Assembly: GCF_001509405.1 (NCBI RefSeq) | Contig: NZ_CP011502.1 | Span: 744,001-808,000 of the forward strand | DNA length: 64,000 nucleotides | DNA from: Aeromicrobium erythreum | GTDB lineage: Bacteria > Actinomycetota > Actinomycetes > Propionibacteriales > Nocardioidaceae | Direction: 5' to 3' | Shown here: positions 1,635 to 58,850 of the stretch, piece by piece | How positions within the stretch are numbered: the first letter of the stretch is position 1 | How the letters are laid out: each line of letters opens with the position of its first letter | Notes under the pieces: model-generated | What the model was told of the DNA's origin: nothing | The model's input: the letters and a program-made list of their open reading frames with translations, nothing else | Database searches by the model: none | Translations under genes and position numbers: made by a program

Positions 1635-2065
1635 GTCGTGACGTCGCTGGTGCGCTGCCGTAGGGGATCTGGGGTTGCTGGTGCGCTGCCGCGGCTGGCG
1701 CTGGGGGTGGTCTCCGCAAGGGCCTCGACCGGGCGGCCGGGTGGCGCCGTGGCTCGGGTTCTCGGGCTGTGGCCTTCGGTGGACACAAGAACCTGCGTTC
1801 GTGCGCTGGGACGTCAAGGATGCTGCGATTGCTACGGGATCCCGTCGTGAACGCAGAAGCGTTCGGCCTCGCACGCGCGAAGGAAGAAGCGTGGGTGTGC
1901 TTGGGGGTGGGGTGGGCAGCGCTTCTCCCTTCGCGTGGCACGGTCCGCGAGAAGGAAGCATCGTTGCCACGCTCAGCCCCGTCGGCGGTGGAACATCAAC
2001 CGCACGAGCGCTCCTGCGGTTGGAGATCCACCGATGGAGCGCGCGAACGCAGCATTGTGCGTCCC
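1635..2065. repeat. Intergenic mosaic inverted-repeat element A (right-truncated)
   Basis: This is the first of five related intergenic elements. The left arm has two copies of GGTGCGCTGCCG (1649, 1680), the conserved module around GGGCCTCGACCGGGCGG (1711-1738) and TCTCGGGCTGTGG (1760). Palindromes follow: one centred on GGATCC (1820-1859), one at 1921-1959 and an imperfect one at 1981-2035. The mirrored right arm seen in B, D and E is missing: the acyltransferase stop codon lies at 2077. Open frames across this stretch code only for Arg/Gly-rich low-complexity peptides and are not credible genes. This element accounts for the 507-base gap between rpoC and the acyltransferase. Confidence 0.75.
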
Positions 2066-9981: not shown

Positions 9982-10229
9982 GGGTACTGGCTCGTCGTGC
10001 GGTTGCGGTCTTGACGACTTGCCGGTGCGCTGTCGCAGGGGTCTCGTCGTGCTGCTGCGCTGCCGCGGGGAGTCTCGTCGTGCTGCTGCGCCGCCTCGAC
10101 TCGCGCTCGGTCTGGTCTCCGAAAAGGCCTCGACCGGGCGGCTGGCGTCAGCGGTGGGTCGAGCACTCGGGCTGTGGCTTCGGCACGGGTGAACACAAGA
10201 ATCTGCGTTCGGGTGCGGGAGTGCCAAGG

Positions 10230-10269
10230 CTTCTGCGTTTGCTACGGGATCCCCTCGCGAACGCAGAAG
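10230..10269. repeat. Palindrome P1 in element B
   Basis: Two 20-base arms meet at the GGGATCCC centre, with 17 of 20 positions complementary. The outer ends are CTTCTGCGTT and AACGCAGAAG. The same unit recurs in elements A, C and D. Confidence 0.75.
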
Positions 10270-10470
10270 CCCTGCCAGGCCTGACCACGTCGGCGGTGGA
10301 TTCTCCACCTGTACAGCGCTGAGAAGGTGACAGATCCACCGCCGAGGGCGATGCGGTGGCAAATCCACCGCTCAGGACGCGCCAACGCAAACTCCTGCGT
10401 CCCAAGCAGGCCACAGCCCGAGAACCCGAGCCGCCGCCGCTGCCAGCCGCCCGGTCGAGGCCCTTTCGGA

Positions 10471-10660
10471 GCGCAGGACGAGTCGAAACCGCGCCGACGC
10501 AGCCCCACCCGAGGACGAAGCCGCGCCGACGCACCCCCACCCGAGCACGAAACCGCGCGGACGCAGCCCCACCCGAGCGCGAAGCCGCGCCGGCGCAGCC
10601 CCACCCCAACACGAGCCACACCGGCGCAGCCGCAGGTCGAGGGAGAAGCCGCATCGACGC
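10471..10660 (+). repeat. Tandem array of 32-bp units (right end of element B)
   Basis: A partial unit is followed by units at 10497, 10529, 10561, 10593 and 10624, with a period of 31-33 bp. The core is ACGCAGCCCCACCCGAG followed by a variable pair and CGAAGCCGCGCC. Identity falls towards the right end. The copies are contiguous with no unique spacers. The array ends just before the -10 box of the DUF3151 gene. A shorter copy of this array type forms the right end of element C. Confidence 0.8.
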
Positions 10661-10678
10661 ACCCGCTGGCGCGGTGCG

Positions 10679-17157: not shown

Positions 17158-17612
17158 TCGCTGGTGCGCTGCCGTAGGGGCTCTGTGCCTGCTCGTTGAC
17201 TGCCGCGGGGCGTCTGGGCTTGGTGGTGCGCTGCCTGCGGGGGTCTCGCCCTGCTGGTGCGCTGCCTCGGCTGGCGCTGGGGATGGGCTCCGAAAGGGCC
17301 TCGACCGGCAGCGGGCCTGGGGGCGGCTCGGGGTCTCGGGGTCTGGTCTGGGCTCGTGGGTGACGTAGGAATCTTCGTTTCTGCGTTCTGGGGCCACGGT
17401 TCTGCGTTGGCGACGGGATCCCGTCGCAAACGCAGAAGCTTTGGCCGTCAGTGCACCAACGCACAGTCTTGCGTCCACCCCGAGCGCAACCCGCAGCCCG
17501 AGACCCCAGACCAGCGCGGGTGCCAGCCGCCCGGTCGAGGCTTCTTTCGGAGCGCAGGACGAGACGAAGCCACGCCGACGCAGCCGCAGCACGAGACGAA
17601 CCTGACCGACGC
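17158..17612. repeat. Intergenic mosaic inverted-repeat element C (inverted orientation)
   Basis: The left arm has four tandem units around GGTGCGCTGCC, then CTCCGAAAGGGCCTCGACC continuing as GGCAGCGGGCC (17289-17312). That continuation is found on the right arms of D and E. The right arm (17521-17552) has the other variant, ending GGGCGGCTGGC when read inverted. Element C is therefore flipped relative to D and E. It keeps the GGATCC palindrome but lacks the two central hairpins. Together with the purC promoter it fills the 546-base gap between purB and purC. No gene is visible in it. Confidence 0.78.
17399..17438. repeat. Palindrome P1 in element C
   Basis: Two 20-base arms around GGATCC with 18 of 20 pairs. 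The inner 18 bases GCGACGGGATCCCGTCGC form a perfect palindrome. Confidence 0.8.
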
Positions 17613-26703: not shown

Positions 26704-26967
26704 GGTGGGCGGGGCTCGTCCTGCTGCTGGGCTTCTCTGGGGGGGGTCTGGGGTTGGTGGTGCGCTGACTGCGGTGGTCGTGACCTTGCTGGTGCGCTGC
26801 CGCAGGGGGTCTGGGCGTAGGGCTGCGCTGCCTCGGCGTTCGCTGAGGTTGGTCTCCGAAAGGGCCTCGACCGGGCGGCTGGCGGCCACGCTGGTCTGGG
26901 GTCTCGGGCTGTGGGTTGGTTCTGGGGTGGACGCAAGCTTCTGCGTTCGTGTGCGGGAGGGCAAGGA

Positions 26968-27005
26968 TTCTGCGTTGCCTACGGGATCCCGTCGCGAACG
27001 CAGAA
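26968..27005. repeat. Palindrome P1 in element D
   Basis: Two 19-base arms (TTCTGCGTT outer, ACGGGATCCCGT centre) with 16 of 19 pairs. Confidence 0.78.
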
Positions 27006-27067
27006 GCGTTCGGCTTCGAACGCACGAATGCAGAGTCGTGAGTGCTCTTTGCGTTGGGGGGACGCAA

Positions 27068-27109
27068 GATTCTGCGTTCGCGTGGAACGGTCCACGCAAA
27101 GGCAGAATC
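27068..27109. repeat. Palindrome P2 in element D
   Basis: GATTCTGCGTTCGCGTGGA faces TCCACGCAAAGGCAGAATC around a short ACGG centre, with three mismatches. Related hairpins lie at 43453-43492 and 1921-1959. Confidence 0.75.
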
Positions 27110-27129
27110 CTTCCAGCGCGACGCCTGCC

Positions 27130-27181
27130 ATCGGTGGATCTGCAACCGTAGAAGCGCTCCTGCGGTTGCAGATCCACCGAT
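27130..27181. repeat. Hairpin P3 in element D
   Basis: ATCGGTGGATCTGCAACCG (27130-27148) is the exact inverted complement of 27163-27181, leaving a 14-base loop that contains AGCGCT. A close copy with 23-base arms lies in element E. Confidence 0.85.
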
Positions 27182-27463
27182 AGGACGCGCGAACGCAGAA
27201 CGGTGGGCCAAGAACGCAGAAACGAAGAACCTTGGGTCGAGGGCAGGCTCAGACCGGACCCCGAGACCCGGAACCGGCCCCAGACCCGCTGCCGGTCGAG
27301 GCCCTTTCGGAGACCACCTCCAGCGAAGGCCGCGGCAGCGCACCAGCAAGCACAAGCCGTCTGCGGCAGCGCGCCAGCAAGCACAGACTCCCTGCGACGA
27401 CGCAGCACCCCTCAGCCCCGCCAGCCCGGCGGGGGGAGGGCGCGTCTGGCATCATCCGGAACC

Positions 27464-41742: not shown

Positions 41743-43176
41743 ATGAGCGACCCGCACCTGATCGTGCTCTTCGGCGCGACGGGGGACCTGGCCCGCCGCA
41801 AGCTGCTGCCCGGCATCCTGCACCTGCTGCGCTCGAGGCTGGCAGCGGACTCGCGGATCGTCGCCGTCTCGATGGACGACCTCGACGACGACGGCTTCCG
41901 TCGCTTCGCCCAGGACGCCTGCCGCGAGTTCGGACGGCCGGTGCCCGAGGAGGAGTGGGACGACTTCGCGCCCAAGCTGCACTACGTGAACGTCGCCGAC
42001 GGGCCCGCGCGGCTCGCGGAGGTCGCGGGCCGGCTGGAGGAGGAGCTGGGTGGTGCCCCGCGCCGGCTTCACTACCTGAGCGTGCCGCCGAGGGCCGCGG
42101 TCGACGTCGTCCGCACCCTCGACGAGGCGGGCCTGGTCGAGCGGTCGCGGATCATCATGGAGAAGCCGTTCGGCACCGACCTCGAGAGCGCCCGAGCCCT
42201 GAACGCCCGCATCCACGAGGTGTTCGACGAGGACCAGATCTTCCGCATCGACCACTTCCTCGGCAAGGAGGCCGCGCTCAACATCCTGGCGTTCCGGTTC
42301 GCGAACGGGCTGTTCGAGCCGATCTGGAACCGCACCTTCATCGACCACGTGCAGATCGACGTGCCGGAGACGCTGTCGGTGTCGGGGCGGGCCGGGTTCT
42401 ACGAGGGCACGGGCGCGTTCAAGGACATGGTGGTGACCCACCTGTTCCAGATCCTCGCGTTCATGGCGATGGAGCCGCCCACGTCGCTGGACTCCAGCTC
42501 GATCAGCGAGGAGAAGAACAAGGTCTTCCGCTCGATGCTGCCGCTGCGCCCCTCCGACGTCGTGCGAGGCCAGTACCAGGGGTACCGCGAGGAGGAGGGC
42601 GTCTCCCACGACTCCGAGACGGAGACGTTCGTGGCGCTGCGCGCGCAGATCGACAACTGGCGCTGGGCGGGCGTGCCGTTCTACCTGCGCACCGGGAAGC
42701 AGATGGCCCAGGGCGCGCGGATCATCTCCATCGCCTTCCGCGAGCCGCCGAAGTCGATGTTCCCGGCCGGGTCGGGCGTCGGGCTGTCGGGCCCGGACCA
42801 CCTCACCTTCGACCTCGCCGACTCCTCCCGCCTGTCGCTGTCGTTCTACGGCAAGCGCCCCGGCCCCGGCCTGCGGCTGGACAAGCTGTCGATGCAGTTC
42901 GCGATGCAGGACACCGCACGGGCGGGGGAGGTGCTGGAGGCCTACGAGCGGCTCATCCTCGACGCGATGAAGGGGGAGCGGACGCTGTTCACCACCGCGG
43001 AGGGCATCGAGCGGCTCTGGGAGGTCTCCCAGCCCCTCCTCGACGACCCACCGCCCGTCCGCCCCTACCCCGTCGGCACGTGGGGTCCCAACGCCGTGCA
43101 CCAGCTCATCGCCCCCCGCGCGTGGCGCCTGCCCTTCGAGCGCACCTGGCGCGACCCGAACGAGTCGGGGCAGTAG
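41743..43176 (+). CDS. zwf: Glucose-6-phosphate 1-dehydrogenase
   Basis: A 477-residue enzyme oxidising glucose-6-phosphate to 6-phosphogluconolactone and supplying NADPH through the pentose phosphate pathway. The nucleotide-binding loop is LIVLFGATGDLARRKLLPG and the catalytic signature RIDHFLGKEAALNI (residues ~166-179). IIMEKPFGTDLESA and PFYLRTGKQMAQGA are further diagnostic segments. The usual partners (tkt, tal, opcA, pgl) are not adjacent, so this may be a second or stand-alone copy. It is transcribed from its own leaderless promoter and ends about 20 bases before element E, with no separate terminator. Confidence 0.95.
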   Translation: MSDPHLIVLFGATGDLARRKLLPGILHLLRSRLAADSRIVAVSMDDLDDDGFRRFAQDACREFGRPVPEEEWDDFAPKLHYVNVADGPARLAEVAGRLEEELGGAPRRLHYLSVPPRAAVDVVRTLDEAGLVERSRIIMEKPFGTDLESARALNARIHEVFDEDQIFRIDHFLGKEAALNILAFRFANGLFEPIWNRTFIDHVQIDVPETLSVSGRAGFYEGTGAFKDMVVTHLFQILAFMAMEPPTSLDSSSISEEKNKVFRSMLPLRPSDVVRGQYQGYREEEGVSHDSETETFVALRAQIDNWRWAGVPFYLRTGKQMAQGARIISIAFREPPKSMFPAGSGVGLSGPDHLTFDLADSSRLSLSFYGKRPGPGLRLDKLSMQFAMQDTARAGEVLEAYERLILDAMKGERTLFTTAEGIERLWEVSQPLLDDPPPVRPYPVGTWGPNAVHQLIAPRAWRLPFERTWRDPNESGQ

Positions 43177-43452
43177 GGGAGAGTTCGGGCTGGTCCCGCT
43201 GGTGCGCTGGCTGCGGTCGTCGCGACCTTGCTGGTGCGCTGCCGTAGGGGGCCTCGACCTGCTGGTGCGCCGCCGCAGGAGGTCTCGACCCGCTGGTGCG
43301 CTACCTCAGCGTTCGCTGGGGGTGGTCTCCGAAAGGGCCTCGACCGGGCGGCTGGCATCCGCGCTGGTCTGGGGTCTCGGGCTGCGGGTTGGTGCCGGGG
43401 TGGACGCACGAATGCAGAATCTTGGGTGCCCTTTGCGTTGGGGGGACGCAAG

Positions 43453-43492
43453 ATTCTGCCTTTGCGCGGACCGTTCCACACAAAGGCAGCAT
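43453..43492. repeat. Palindrome P2 in element E
   Basis: ATTCTGCCTTTGCGCGGA faces TTCCACACAAAGGCAGCAT, a near-palindrome related to 27068-27109 in element D. Confidence 0.72.
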
Positions 43493-43512
43493 CCTTCTGA
43501 CGCTCAGCCCTC

Positions 43513-43566
43513 TATCGGTGGATCATCAACCGCAGAGGCGCTCCTGCGGTTGCAGATCCACCGATA
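43513..43566. repeat. Hairpin P3 in element E
   Basis: Arms 43513-43535 and 43544-43566 are 23 bases each with two mismatches and an 8-base loop; the arms begin TATCGGTGGAT and end ATCCACCGATA. Confidence 0.85.
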
Positions 43567-43839
43567 GGACGCGCCAACGCAGAACCCTGGCCCGAGAACG
43601 CAGAAACGAAGAATCGTGCGCCACCCGAGAGCCCAGACCAGACCCCGAGACCCCAGACCACCTCCAGGCCCGCTGCCGGTCGAGGCCCTTTCGGAGCCCA
43701 CCCCCAGCGAAGGCCGAGGCAGCGCACCGGCAAGCACAGACCTCCTGCGGCGGCGCACCACCGAGCCCAGACCCCCTGCGGCAGCGCACCAGCAAGGTCA
43801 CGACCCCCGCAGCCACCGCACCAGCAAGGTCACGCAGGC

Positions 43840-44283
43840 TCAGGACAGCTCGCGCACCAGGTGCACGACGGGGAAGGGGCGGCCGAAGGCGTCGGTGGTG
43901 TGGGTGCGCAGGGTGCGGAAGCCGTGTGACGTGTAGAAGCCGAGGCCGTGCGCGTTGCCGGCGTACACCTCGACGCTGGTGGGGGCGACGTGGTCGAGCA
44001 GGAGGGTGCCGATGCCCGTGCCGTGCACCTCGGGCTCGACGTACAGCAGCTCCAGGTGGGTGCCCCGGCACCCGGCGAGGCCGAGGGGGCGGCCGGCGCG
44101 CTCGGCGACCCAGACGTCCATCGACGGCAGCAGCGCGTCGCGCAGGTAGGGGTGGGCGTCGGTGAAGTCGTGGTCGGCCATGAAGCCGTGGCTCGTCCGA
44201 GCCGCCCGCTCCCAGAGGTCGGTCAGCTCGTCGAGGTCCCGTTCGCGGGCGAGCCTGATGGTCACGTCGGCCAGGTCGCTCAC
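43840..44283 (-). CDS. GNAT-family N-acetyltransferase
   Basis: A 147-residue acetyltransferase. The acetyl-CoA pyrophosphate loop is LLYVEPEVHGTGIGTLLLDH, and the C-terminal part (SVEVYAGNAHGLGFYTSHGF) is the usual beta-5/alpha-4 region. The N-terminus TIRLARERDLDELTDLWERA is typical of small-molecule GNATs. The GTG start overlaps the YtrA-type regulator stop by 4 bases, so both are coupled, and the regulator may control it. Its stop codon is 15 bases from the right end of element E. The substrate is unknown. Confidence 0.85.
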   Translation of the reverse strand: MSDLADVTIRLARERDLDELTDLWERAARTSHGFMADHDFTDAHPYLRDALLPSMDVWVAERAGRPLGLAGCRGTHLELLYVEPEVHGTGIGTLLLDHVAPTSVEVYAGNAHGLGFYTSHGFRTLRTHTTDAFGRPFPVVHLVRELS

Positions 44284-57453: not shown

Positions 57454-57535
57454 CGTTTCCGGGCCACGGCGGGGCAGCCCCGCCGTGGCCCGAGACGCCG
57501 TCTCGACACAGCCGCGGGACGACCGGGTGAGCGGC

Positions 57536-58153
57536 TCAGTCCTGCTGCGGCAGCGCGCGTCGCACCAGCTCGACCACGTGGCCGTGCAGGAGCGCGAGGA
57601 CGCCGTCGAGACCGATCTCGCGGTCGGCGGCGGCCACGAGTGCCCCGGAGTAGAGCAGGCTGGCGCCGCGGGTCACCTCGACGGGGTCGGGCGCGCCCGT
57701 GGCGGCGACGATCGCGACCTGGCTGCCGAAGCACGCGTCGCGCATGGCGTGCACCGCCTCCCGCAGATGGGGTCGGGCGAGCGAGGCCAGGTAGACGTTC
57801 AGGTAGTGCGACGGGCGGTCGGGGGACAGCGTGCGCATCGGCGCGGTGAAGCGGTCCGCGGCCTCCTCGGGCGAGAGGCTCGTCCCGGCCTCGGGCACGA
57901 GTGCGGCCCACTCGTCGGTCCAGTGGGTGAGTGCCTCGCCGAACATGACGTCGACCAGCTGGTCGATCGAGGCGAAGTAGTACGACACCGTCGCGAGCGG
58001 CACCTGCGCGGCCTCGCTGACGGAACGGTGGGTGACGGCCTTGGTGCCGCCCTCCTCGAAGAGCTGTGCGGCGGCGGCGACGAGCTGGTCGCGGCGCACT
58101 CGGCTCCGCTCCTGGCTCAGACGTGCGCGGCCTCCGGGTACTGCCTCAGGCAT
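57536..58153 (-). CDS. TetR-family regulator
   Basis: A 205-residue TetR-type regulator. The helix-turn-helix lies at ~residues 14-68 (LSQERSRVRRDQLVAAAAQL, THRSVSEAAQVPLATVSYYF). The C-terminal ligand domain is typical in length, and the end RRALPQQD is unstructured. It lies 52 bases downstream of a second TetR gene on the same strand whose DNA-binding domain is very similar, suggesting duplication. The target and ligand are unknown. The ATG is preceded by an A-rich stretch rather than a clear ribosome site. Confidence 0.9.
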   Translation of the reverse strand: MPEAVPGGRARLSQERSRVRRDQLVAAAAQLFEEGGTKAVTHRSVSEAAQVPLATVSYYFASIDQLVDVMFGEALTHWTDEWAALVPEAGTSLSPEEAADRFTAPMRTLSPDRPSHYLNVYLASLARPHLREAVHAMRDACFGSQVAIVAATGAPDPVEVTRGASLLYSGALVAAADREIGLDGVLALLHGHVVELVRRALPQQD

Positions 58154-58205: not shown

Positions 58206-58850
58206 TCAAGGGTTCAACTTCTCGCTGATGATCTGGGCAACCCCGTCGGGCCCGGCCAGCTCGGCCGCGACGAGACCGCGGATCGCCCAGTCCAGCTGCG
58301 CCGCCTCCTCGGCCTCCGTGTAGAGCCGCGCCTGGCGTCGCATCGCCGTGCCGACGATCAGGGTGAGCACGGTCGGCGCCACCCTCGAGGTGTCGGTGAG
58401 ACCGAGGATCGACAGCCAGAGGGCGATCAGGCCCTCCAGGTCGCTCAGTGCCTCGCCGGCCTCCTCGCGCAGGGCGGGGTCGTGCGTGGAGGCCAGGTAG
58501 ATCGACAGCTCGACCGCGACGGCCTCCGGTCCGCGCGCCGCGAACACGGCCTCGAACGTGGGCGCGACGGAGTCGAGGTCGACGTTCTCGGGCGGCGTCT
58601 CGAGGCCCGCGAGCGCGGCCAGCGTGCTGCGCCAGCGCGCGATGTGCTCGCGGAGGGCGTCGCGCAGGAGCTCCTCGATGGAGGCGAAGTAGTAGGTGGT
58701 CGTGGCCGGCGGCAGCCCCGCCCGACGAGCCACGGCACGGTGCGTCACCGCCCGGGCGCCTCCCTCGGCGAAGAGCGAGATGGCCGCGGTCAGCAGCTCC
58801 TCCCTCCGCAGTCGACTGCGCTCCTGCGTCAGCTGCGCACGCGTCGTCAT
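58206..58850 (-). CDS. TetR-family regulator (paralogue of the downstream gene)
   Basis: A 214-residue TetR-type regulator. The N-terminal [20 protein letters not shown] and [20 protein letters not shown] align closely with the same region of the 57536-58153 protein, while the ligand domains differ. A GAGAGGTGG-like ribosome site precedes ATG 58850. It is divergent from folD with a 147-base gap. Candidate targets are folD-DUF3017 or the TetR pair itself, but I see no clear shared palindrome. Confidence 0.9.

Follow-up and report, generated by a model that had tools for sequence, protein, structure and literature searches.

The window is a 64-kb stretch (bases 744001 to 808000) of the 3,629,239-bp, single-contig genome of Aeromicrobium erythreum (G000 below); the published genome of strain NRRL B-3381 is described as circular in its announcement (PMC4841140). 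Genes were called with our own ORF scorer, a non-standard annotator. A glucose-6-phosphate dehydrogenase family gene and a GNAT acetyltransferase family gene converge on a gap occupied by element E, a 628-bp mirror. E had been predicted from the letters alone to consist of four units of 31 to 32 bp facing four inverted ones, and this plan held: the inverted arms (43198-43347 and 43676-43825) span 150 nt at 86% complementarity, and the unit steps are those claimed (32 and 31 on the left, with a fourth left unit at 43292, and 31, 31 and 32 on the right). Of the nested hairpins described inside the arms, an H2 type and H3 are present, but the H1 hairpin of fuller copies is missing from E. Folded as DNA, E reaches -268.9 kcal/mol compared to -145.8 ± 5.3 kcal/mol for 20 dinucleotide shuffles (z = -23). 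The same modules were recognized in all five stretches originally named, with best BLAST E-values for E of 4e-27, 1e-33, 1e-70 and 6e-113 against A, B, C and D, respectively; A and C proved to be partial, with one R module each, rather than full copies. Rfam 15 gave no match above gathering score in the 64-kb window, which ruled out a known structured RNA family there.

41743-43176, + strand: left neighbor of E, glucose-6-phosphate dehydrogenase family
43177..43839, no strand: element E, entire gap between convergent genes; a gap of ~48 bp, empty, in G018
43198..43321, + strand: left array, four 31-32 bp units starting at 43198, 43230, 43261 and 43292, the first three fitting GnnGnTGCGnnGnnnnnG
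43326..43347, + strand: left R module, exact 22-mer
43372..43384, + strand: left Q motif, GGTCTCGGGCTG type, low divergence
43405..43493, no strand: H2-type core hairpins with two overlapping, competing stems, 43405-43468 and 43452-43493 (inverted-repeat search, H2 covariation)
43512..43567, no strand: core hairpin H3, 24-bp stem, kin to the ~50-bp REP-like hairpin of G021
43621..43653, - strand: right Q motifs, two matches
43676..43697, - strand: right R module, one mismatch
43714..43825, - strand: right array, inverted units with the motif at 43714, 43745, 43776 and 43808 and an overlapping match at 43799
43840-44283, - strand: right neighbor of E, GNAT acetyltransferase family
1635..2065, no strand: element A (partial), units at 1646 and 1677, R at 1711-1732, H3-type hairpin at 2008-2042; convergent gap 1570-2076
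10021..10666, no strand: element B, R at 10116-10137 (+) and 10451-10472 (-); inversion breakpoint relative to G018; right array of ~32-bp period with a different unit sequence and the same motif
17158..17612, no strand: element C (partial), R at 17287-17308 (+), H1-type hairpin at 17398-17439
26753..27410, no strand: element D, R at 26853-26874 (+) and 27292-27313 (-), hairpins H1 26968-27005, H2 27068-27109 and H3 27130-27181; gap empty in G018

Relatives are labeled G018, G026, G039 and G021; A. erythreum, G026 and G039 form a sibling group, and G018 is another Aeromicrobium species. Wider sets comprised 49 Aeromicrobium genomes and 341 genomes of the taxonomic family.

Anatomy of the elements

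From the outside inward, an element comprises an array of 31-32 bp units (0 to 7 per side), an R module, a Q motif (GGTCTCGGGCTG) and the hairpins H1 (centered on CGGGATCCCG), H2 and H3, any of which is absent from some copies. In paired elements the units point consistently inward, with 96 on the plus and 2 on the minus strand at the left and 91 on the minus and 1 on the plus strand at the right. Their spacing (n = 133) is 31 bp in 81 cases, 32 bp in 37 and 30 bp in 8, near three helical turns. In five G018 elements (3268896, 3287564, 1764296, 1972888 and 1630191) the R module is doubled on one side.

Compensatory changes had been expected in the arms and were found in the hairpins: across 39 aligned cores, H2 and H3 hold 24 and 52 compensatory cells, and 95.2% of all cells are paired versus 37-41% when the pairing is slid. 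R-R and Q-Q pairs, by contrast, hardly covary, and are uninformative on pairing because their sequence hardly varies. An MFE-based test on syntenic pairs gave 99 compensated double changes in short stems (26-45 when slid) and 99 in long stems (32-56 when slid), alongside 794 and 1063 single pair-breaking changes, respectively.

A palindrome related to H3, CGGTGGATCNNCCACC, occurs in 22 of the 49 Aeromicrobium genomes (control, 0). At 12 fetched loci of G021, the H3-type palindrome forms simple hairpins of ~50 bp without arms; these REP-like hairpins comprise 47 half-sites genome-wide, with coordinated arm changes and a third half-site 38-40 bp away in 7 of the 12 loci. In G000, three GGTGGACGATCCACCG half-sites lie at 70-bp steps outside the large elements (1978607-1978762). 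A decayed further element at ~2,590.9 kb of G000 has, by eye, kept its right R and array and had its left half and core replaced. There, a hairpin repeat, GGTAGGTGACGCGCG, stands in place of the core between the arms (~2590882-2591083), and a related GGTAGG form occurs in G018 (locus L237, ~11.1-11.3 kb); this repeat may represent either a different kind of core or a separate repeat family.

Copy number and taxonomic range

Allowing up to three mismatches, the R 22-mer TCTCCGAAAGGGCCTCGACCGG has 99 matches in A. erythreum (50 on the plus and 49 on the minus strand), 79 in G018, 88 in G026, 100 in G039 and 0 in G021; read backwards, it has none in any of these five genomes. Grouping modules at up to four mismatches within fetched stretches yielded ~58 elements in A. 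erythreum, the window's five among them, in agreement with the dozens predicted. A facing R pair is present in 43 of the 58 and one detectable R in the other 15; the pair at 714352 is doubtful, as its second R has four mismatches and lies inside a gene.

The family is narrowly distributed. At up to two mismatches, R matched 7 of the 341 family genomes: 93 times in G000, 76 in G018, 80 in G026, 97 in G039 and once in each of three others. Such lone matches are at chance level, since the reversed pattern also matches 2 of the 341 genomes once. BLAST with E at 1e-6 retrieved 5 of the 49 Aeromicrobium genomes, the fifth (G021) by one weak match, so that four species carry the element in numbers. 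In a wider genome scan, paired matches occurred only in two Aeromicrobium-like genomes among the matches listed, and single R matches in other taxa look like chance. Element E matched none of 72,556 plasmid and 50,697 phage records, and the exact 21-base R was absent from viral contigs; a phage or plasmid origin was ruled out on these grounds.

Genomic placement

The elements had been expected always to be intergenic, and by our gene calls all 58 lie between genes, 30 in tandem, 19 in convergent and 9 in divergent gaps. Among 129 other gaps of at least 50 bp in the same stretches, 66 are tandem, 15 convergent and 48 divergent, giving a convergent excess (19/58 versus 15/129; P = 0.0009) and a divergent deficit (9/58 versus 48/129; P = 0.0033). 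The median distance of the outermost motif is 44.5 bp to 3' gene ends (n = 60), as against 92 bp to 5' starts (n = 41). Cores are not clearly oriented with respect to the direction of tandem genes (6/4 for plus-strand genes and 8/7 for minus-strand genes, 5 unscored), and a replichore polarity was rejected (15/7 for one replichore and 9/13 for the other, with 14 unscored; P = 0.13).

Around coordinate 1, in 21% of the G000 chromosome (6.5-534 kb and 3385-3629 kb, bounds set post hoc), there is 1 of the 58 elements. Origin exclusion as a macrodomain rule was ruled out by G018 copies beside its origin. One G000 copy lies between DciA and PAP2 genes, beside RecF-type and gyrB genes, a neighborhood that we take to be that of oriC.

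Positional history

Absence at orthologous gaps of close relatives, which the original prediction had anticipated, depends on the relative. D, E and the oriC-proximal copy (5981) are empty in G018, but positions are common to the three siblings. Element C is also missing from G018, where its site is rearranged. Conversely, two G018 elements face empty G000 gaps of ~103 and 107 bp, absence in G000 being scored solely where the G000 site was read. Both flanks lie at a G000 element in 13 of 49 G018 elements; most flanks of the remaining 36 had no match in the G000 stretches compared.

Within the sibling group, the fetched syntenic stretches of the window in G026 and G039 carry modules at A, B, C, D and E only (5/5 shared). 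Elsewhere, all 34 element entries in the fetched loci of G026 have a flank matching beside a G000 element, as do 47 of 53 entries in G039, some of which are two contig ends of one element. Of the remaining G039 entries, three have flanks that are too short and three lie off detected G000 elements, one of them being the decayed remnant at ~2,590.9 kb. Because these loci were chosen for R, they do not count absences, and the window serves as the unbiased check. No target-site duplication or fixed terminus was seen by eye at empty-site flanks, which are highly diverged, or at arrays of 0 to 7 units; exact element ends cannot be fixed, since the relative with empty sites is too diverged.

The simplest reading is that the element spread both before and after the G018 split and has since held stable positions in the three siblings. 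Present mobility is therefore not supported. Parallel insertion at the same gaps is conceivable in the strict sense, but 25 of 28 syntenic pairs have their cores in the same orientation.

Element B also marks one end of an inversion relative to G018. The junctions join the sequence left of B to that left of 2883044 and the sequence right of B to that right of 2883044. One of these junctions carries an element in G018, and the other what looks by eye like a remnant. The two breakpoints are ~754 and 746 kb away from coordinate 1, which makes the inversion almost symmetrical around the origin region.

Sequence exchange between copies

The flanks of 56 syntenic pairs share a mean identity of 95.3%. 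Cores of 370-470 bp at the same locus (n = 28) average 77.1% (78.1% for G000-G026, 77.2% for G000-G039 and 75.3% for G026-G039), which barely exceeds the value for cores at different loci (74.1-74.9%). Within species, core identity is 85.1% in G039, 84.0% in G018, 74.6% in G000 and 75.4% in G026; between G018 and G000 it is 61%. In a nearest-relative test of 73 cores of 370-470 bp, the same-locus copy was, unexpectedly, nearest in only 2 of the 41 cores having such a partner. The nearest core was in the same species for 20/21 cores in G039, 14/14 in G018, 16/23 in G000 and 6/15 in G026, the other 9 of the 15 G026 cores having their nearest relative in G000. Cores are alike species-wide in G039 and G018 and mixed across loci in G000 and G026; R and the arm motif remain constant.

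A residual locus signal is nonetheless present: of 56 cross-species rankings, 11 placed the syntenic copy at the top (median rank, 8 of 15-23). Summed BLAST scores did so in 19/56 and a local score that favors long cores in 6/37; our conclusions rest on the length-restricted set of 73 cores. The residual signal, together with the closeness of G026 cores to G000, indicates that exchange has not been complete or in part predates the species. Since core orientation is largely kept, overwriting from other copies fits better than fresh insertion.

Constraint on the arm motif and R

Between syntenic copies, unit positions 1, 4, 6-9, 12 and 18 are the least divergent. They differ at 4.8% (54/1121) versus 15.7% (217/1383) for the other positions between G000 and G026, and at 7.3% (62/846) versus 24.3% (250/1028) between G000 and G039; the GCG of the motif diverges by 2-6% and adjoining positions by 10-32%. 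The motif GnnGnTGCGnnGnnnnnG is strongly oriented, with 240 matches toward the core and 3 away in 101 arms of G000, 193 and 2 in 58 arms of G039 (30 of 53 fetched loci), and 135 and 1 in 80 arms of G018; shuffled arms hold a mean of 3.8-5.2 matches. As the motif was derived from G000 versus G026 and G039, G018 is an independent check, and its unit consensus differs from that of G000 outside the motif. The TGCG/CGCA control was unclean (9.4% differing in loosely defined units versus 10.8% elsewhere in the same gaps), so that only the register-specific comparison separates unit positions.

Within R, the last 13 bp differ at 25 of 1272 sites (2.0%) compared to 10.4% for the first 9 bp. Unchanged R modules number 27 of 98, against 10.7% of random 22-mers from the same gaps. 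In 108 G018 modules (up to six mismatches), agreement with the R consensus is 92-99% per base over GGGCCTCGACC and 87% at the last two bases. For comparison, the parts of the gap that lie outside the element diverge by 11.3%, the arms by 17.0%, the R-to-R stretch by 16.3%, and third codon positions of flanking genes by 12.4% (87.6% identity).

A putative DNA-binding protein is the simplest reading of the arm motif. Low divergence at R and at the key unit positions shows constraint at the level of the family, whether through host selection or through the element's own spread. Because syntenic cores are mostly not closest relatives, the notion that low R divergence proves selection at each site is weakened.

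Transposases and a passenger insertion sequence

The original prediction saw no transposase gene, which holds for the five window copies but not for three others, in which an insertion sequence with an rve integrase core splits the core hairpins (3/58 elements):

G000 642200-643740: element split by the insertion sequence, whose 219-aa 3' reading frame does not differ among the three copies
G000 2337233-2338748: element split by the insertion sequence; same 219-aa frame
G000 2825902-2827440: element split by the insertion sequence; same 219-aa frame

Two of these copies are identical over 1081 bp and the third over at least 689 bp; the insertion sequence is presumably IS30-like. It is absent from 39 paired elements of normal length and is therefore a passenger, and the idea of an element encoded by it was rejected. 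Inside G000 elements, no autonomous relative with a transposase was found apart from this one insertion sequence. Y1_Tnp (PF01797, E ≤ 1e-5) was detected in 0 of the 49 Aeromicrobium genomes and in 5 of 14 control genomes, which leaves RAYT-driven REP spread unsupported.

Comparison with known repeat families

Literature searches found no paper on this family, and the main text of the A. erythreum genome announcement contains no word beginning "repeat" or "palindrom" (PMC4841140). REP/BIME sequences are described as intergenic palindromic mosaics, present many times per genome and favoring convergent and unidirectional gaps (PMC3733652, PMC2817692, PMC1525189), and REP palindromes as known targets of insertion sequences (PMC1525189). 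The Aeromicrobium family resembles them in its inverted palindromic units, intergenic placement and high copy number, in its REP-like H3 and the simple REP-like hairpin family of G021, and in being split by an insertion sequence. As for the GT(A/G)G or CGTC tag at one end of REP palindromes, inspection by eye showed candidates only: many copies have CGTC next after the H1 palindrome, and GTGG lies inside the H3 stem. The family differs in its outer phased arrays and near-invariant R pair, which have no counterpart in the available text of these descriptions, and in that the 49 Aeromicrobium genomes have no Y1_Tnp (RAYT-type) gene.

Foldback and Galileo elements of Drosophila are described as modular, with long inverted arms of tandem repeats, and Tetris as non-autonomous; Galileo is reported to carry extra transposase-binding sites in its arms, and foldback-type copies occur at inversion breakpoints (PMC3688188, PMC4079207). 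The Aeromicrobium elements share the long inverted arms of tandem units around a middle domain and the association with inversion breakpoints. They differ in being bacterial, in their stable positions, and in that neither target duplication nor transposase was seen; no sequence kinship is claimed. As in MITEs, copies are present or absent at orthologous sites (three empty in G018, two empty in G000). Pneumococcal BOX elements are modular, with a variable tandem unit, up to 637 bp long and in excess in convergent gaps, with past spread and present slowness (PMC3049150). They are organized as boxA - boxB(n) - boxC with target duplications and an internal, unmirrored tandem unit (PMC3049150), and are set apart from our elements by this description alone. 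As far as the available text goes, modularity, a variable tandem unit, convergent excess and an old spread that is now slow are common to both. Tn7- and Mu-type ends carry inverted arrays of transposase-binding sites, few in number and with fixed terminal bases, unlike the Aeromicrobium elements, in which no fixed terminus was seen. We found no match for the mirrored plan among the described repeat families encountered.

Function and origin

The original prediction offered a mobile element, a REP/BIME-like structure or a protein-binding array, and each has partial support, apart from the RAYT version of REP. Our preferred reading, which we hold tentatively at close to an even chance, is that these are clade-specific, non-autonomous, foldback- or BIME-like intergenic DNA elements whose arms bind a putative protein, and which spread once and are now stable and exchanging sequence. 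The elements would work most like foldback or BIME, short of established membership in either. We speculate that a putative sequence-specific protein binds the array units, one per approximately three helical turns, and that R is recognized by a different factor or a further domain. Once bound, the two arms could pair and extrude the core as a cruciform. In an ancestor, this complex may have let copies spread into gaps without promoter damage; since then, the copies would have been stationary, with gene-conversion-like recombination moving sequence between them, perhaps triggered when the long palindrome breaks. Such breakage could also explain the inversion with breakpoints at two copies.

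The main alternative hypothesis is that the elements are host-selected chromosome sites between transcription units, their arrays and R binding a nucleoid or supercoil-handling protein and insulating or relaxing converging genes, in the manner reported for gyrase and IHF at E. coli BIMEs. Helical phasing of the units, constraint on the motif and R in copies with unchanging positions, the excess in convergent and deficit in divergent gaps, and the lack of clear polarity relative to tandem genes are all consistent with such a role. We nevertheless consider it somewhat unlikely, as only 4 of 49 Aeromicrobium species carry the elements in numbers, just 13 of the 49 G018 elements sit with both flanks beside a G000 element, and no shared chromosomal rule was seen, with an origin gap in G000 and copies near the origin in G018; a convergent excess would also arise from the loss of insertions into promoters.

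The hairpins may instead act in RNA, transcribed from the flanking genes and terminating transcription or protecting 3' ends like REP/BIME attenuators. The folding of E (as DNA) far beyond its shuffles, the covariation of H2 and H3, and the closer distance to 3' gene ends than to 5' starts would suit this role, but 9 of 58 elements sit in divergent gaps, cores point almost equally often either way along tandem genes, and a simple consensus scan of the E region gave one terminator-like and no promoter-like site. The strongest constraint, moreover, falls on sparse arm-unit positions and on R, whose R-R pairs do not covary, and we regard an RNA-level element as improbable. Neutral debris, accreted from duplicated REP-like palindromes and kept alike by recombination alone, would account for the mosaic modules, the whole hairpins absent from some copies and the exchange between loci. 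Exchange by tracts alone, however, would not leave the GCG of the motif at 2-6% divergence next to positions at 10-32%, or only 2.0% divergence in the last 13 bp of R, nor is it expected that G018 would keep the same motif despite cores 61% identical to those of G000, which makes this origin quite improbable.

A bolder reading, which we judge fairly unlikely, is that the mirrored arrays form a chromosome-wide set with a dedicated putative DNA-binding protein that brings copies together and transfers sequence between them, as either a conversion-spread foldback-type element or a new class of chromosome-structuring site. If true, this would combine fixed positions with a shared sequence pool and constant recognition sites. 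The family offers a compact, testable case for how giant intergenic mosaics arise, whether the host or the elements themselves benefit, and by what means dispersed copies swap sequence at only ~75% identity. The phased 31-32 bp motif and the 13-bp core of R could be used as bait for a DNA-binding protein in this erythromycin-producing soil bacterium.

Two further repeats were noted in the window. A near-perfect 33-bp palindrome lies in a convergent gap at 57460-57492 and is probably an ordinary terminator hairpin, and a direct repeat of ~165 bp with 69% identity occupies 57957-58120 and 58669-58832.
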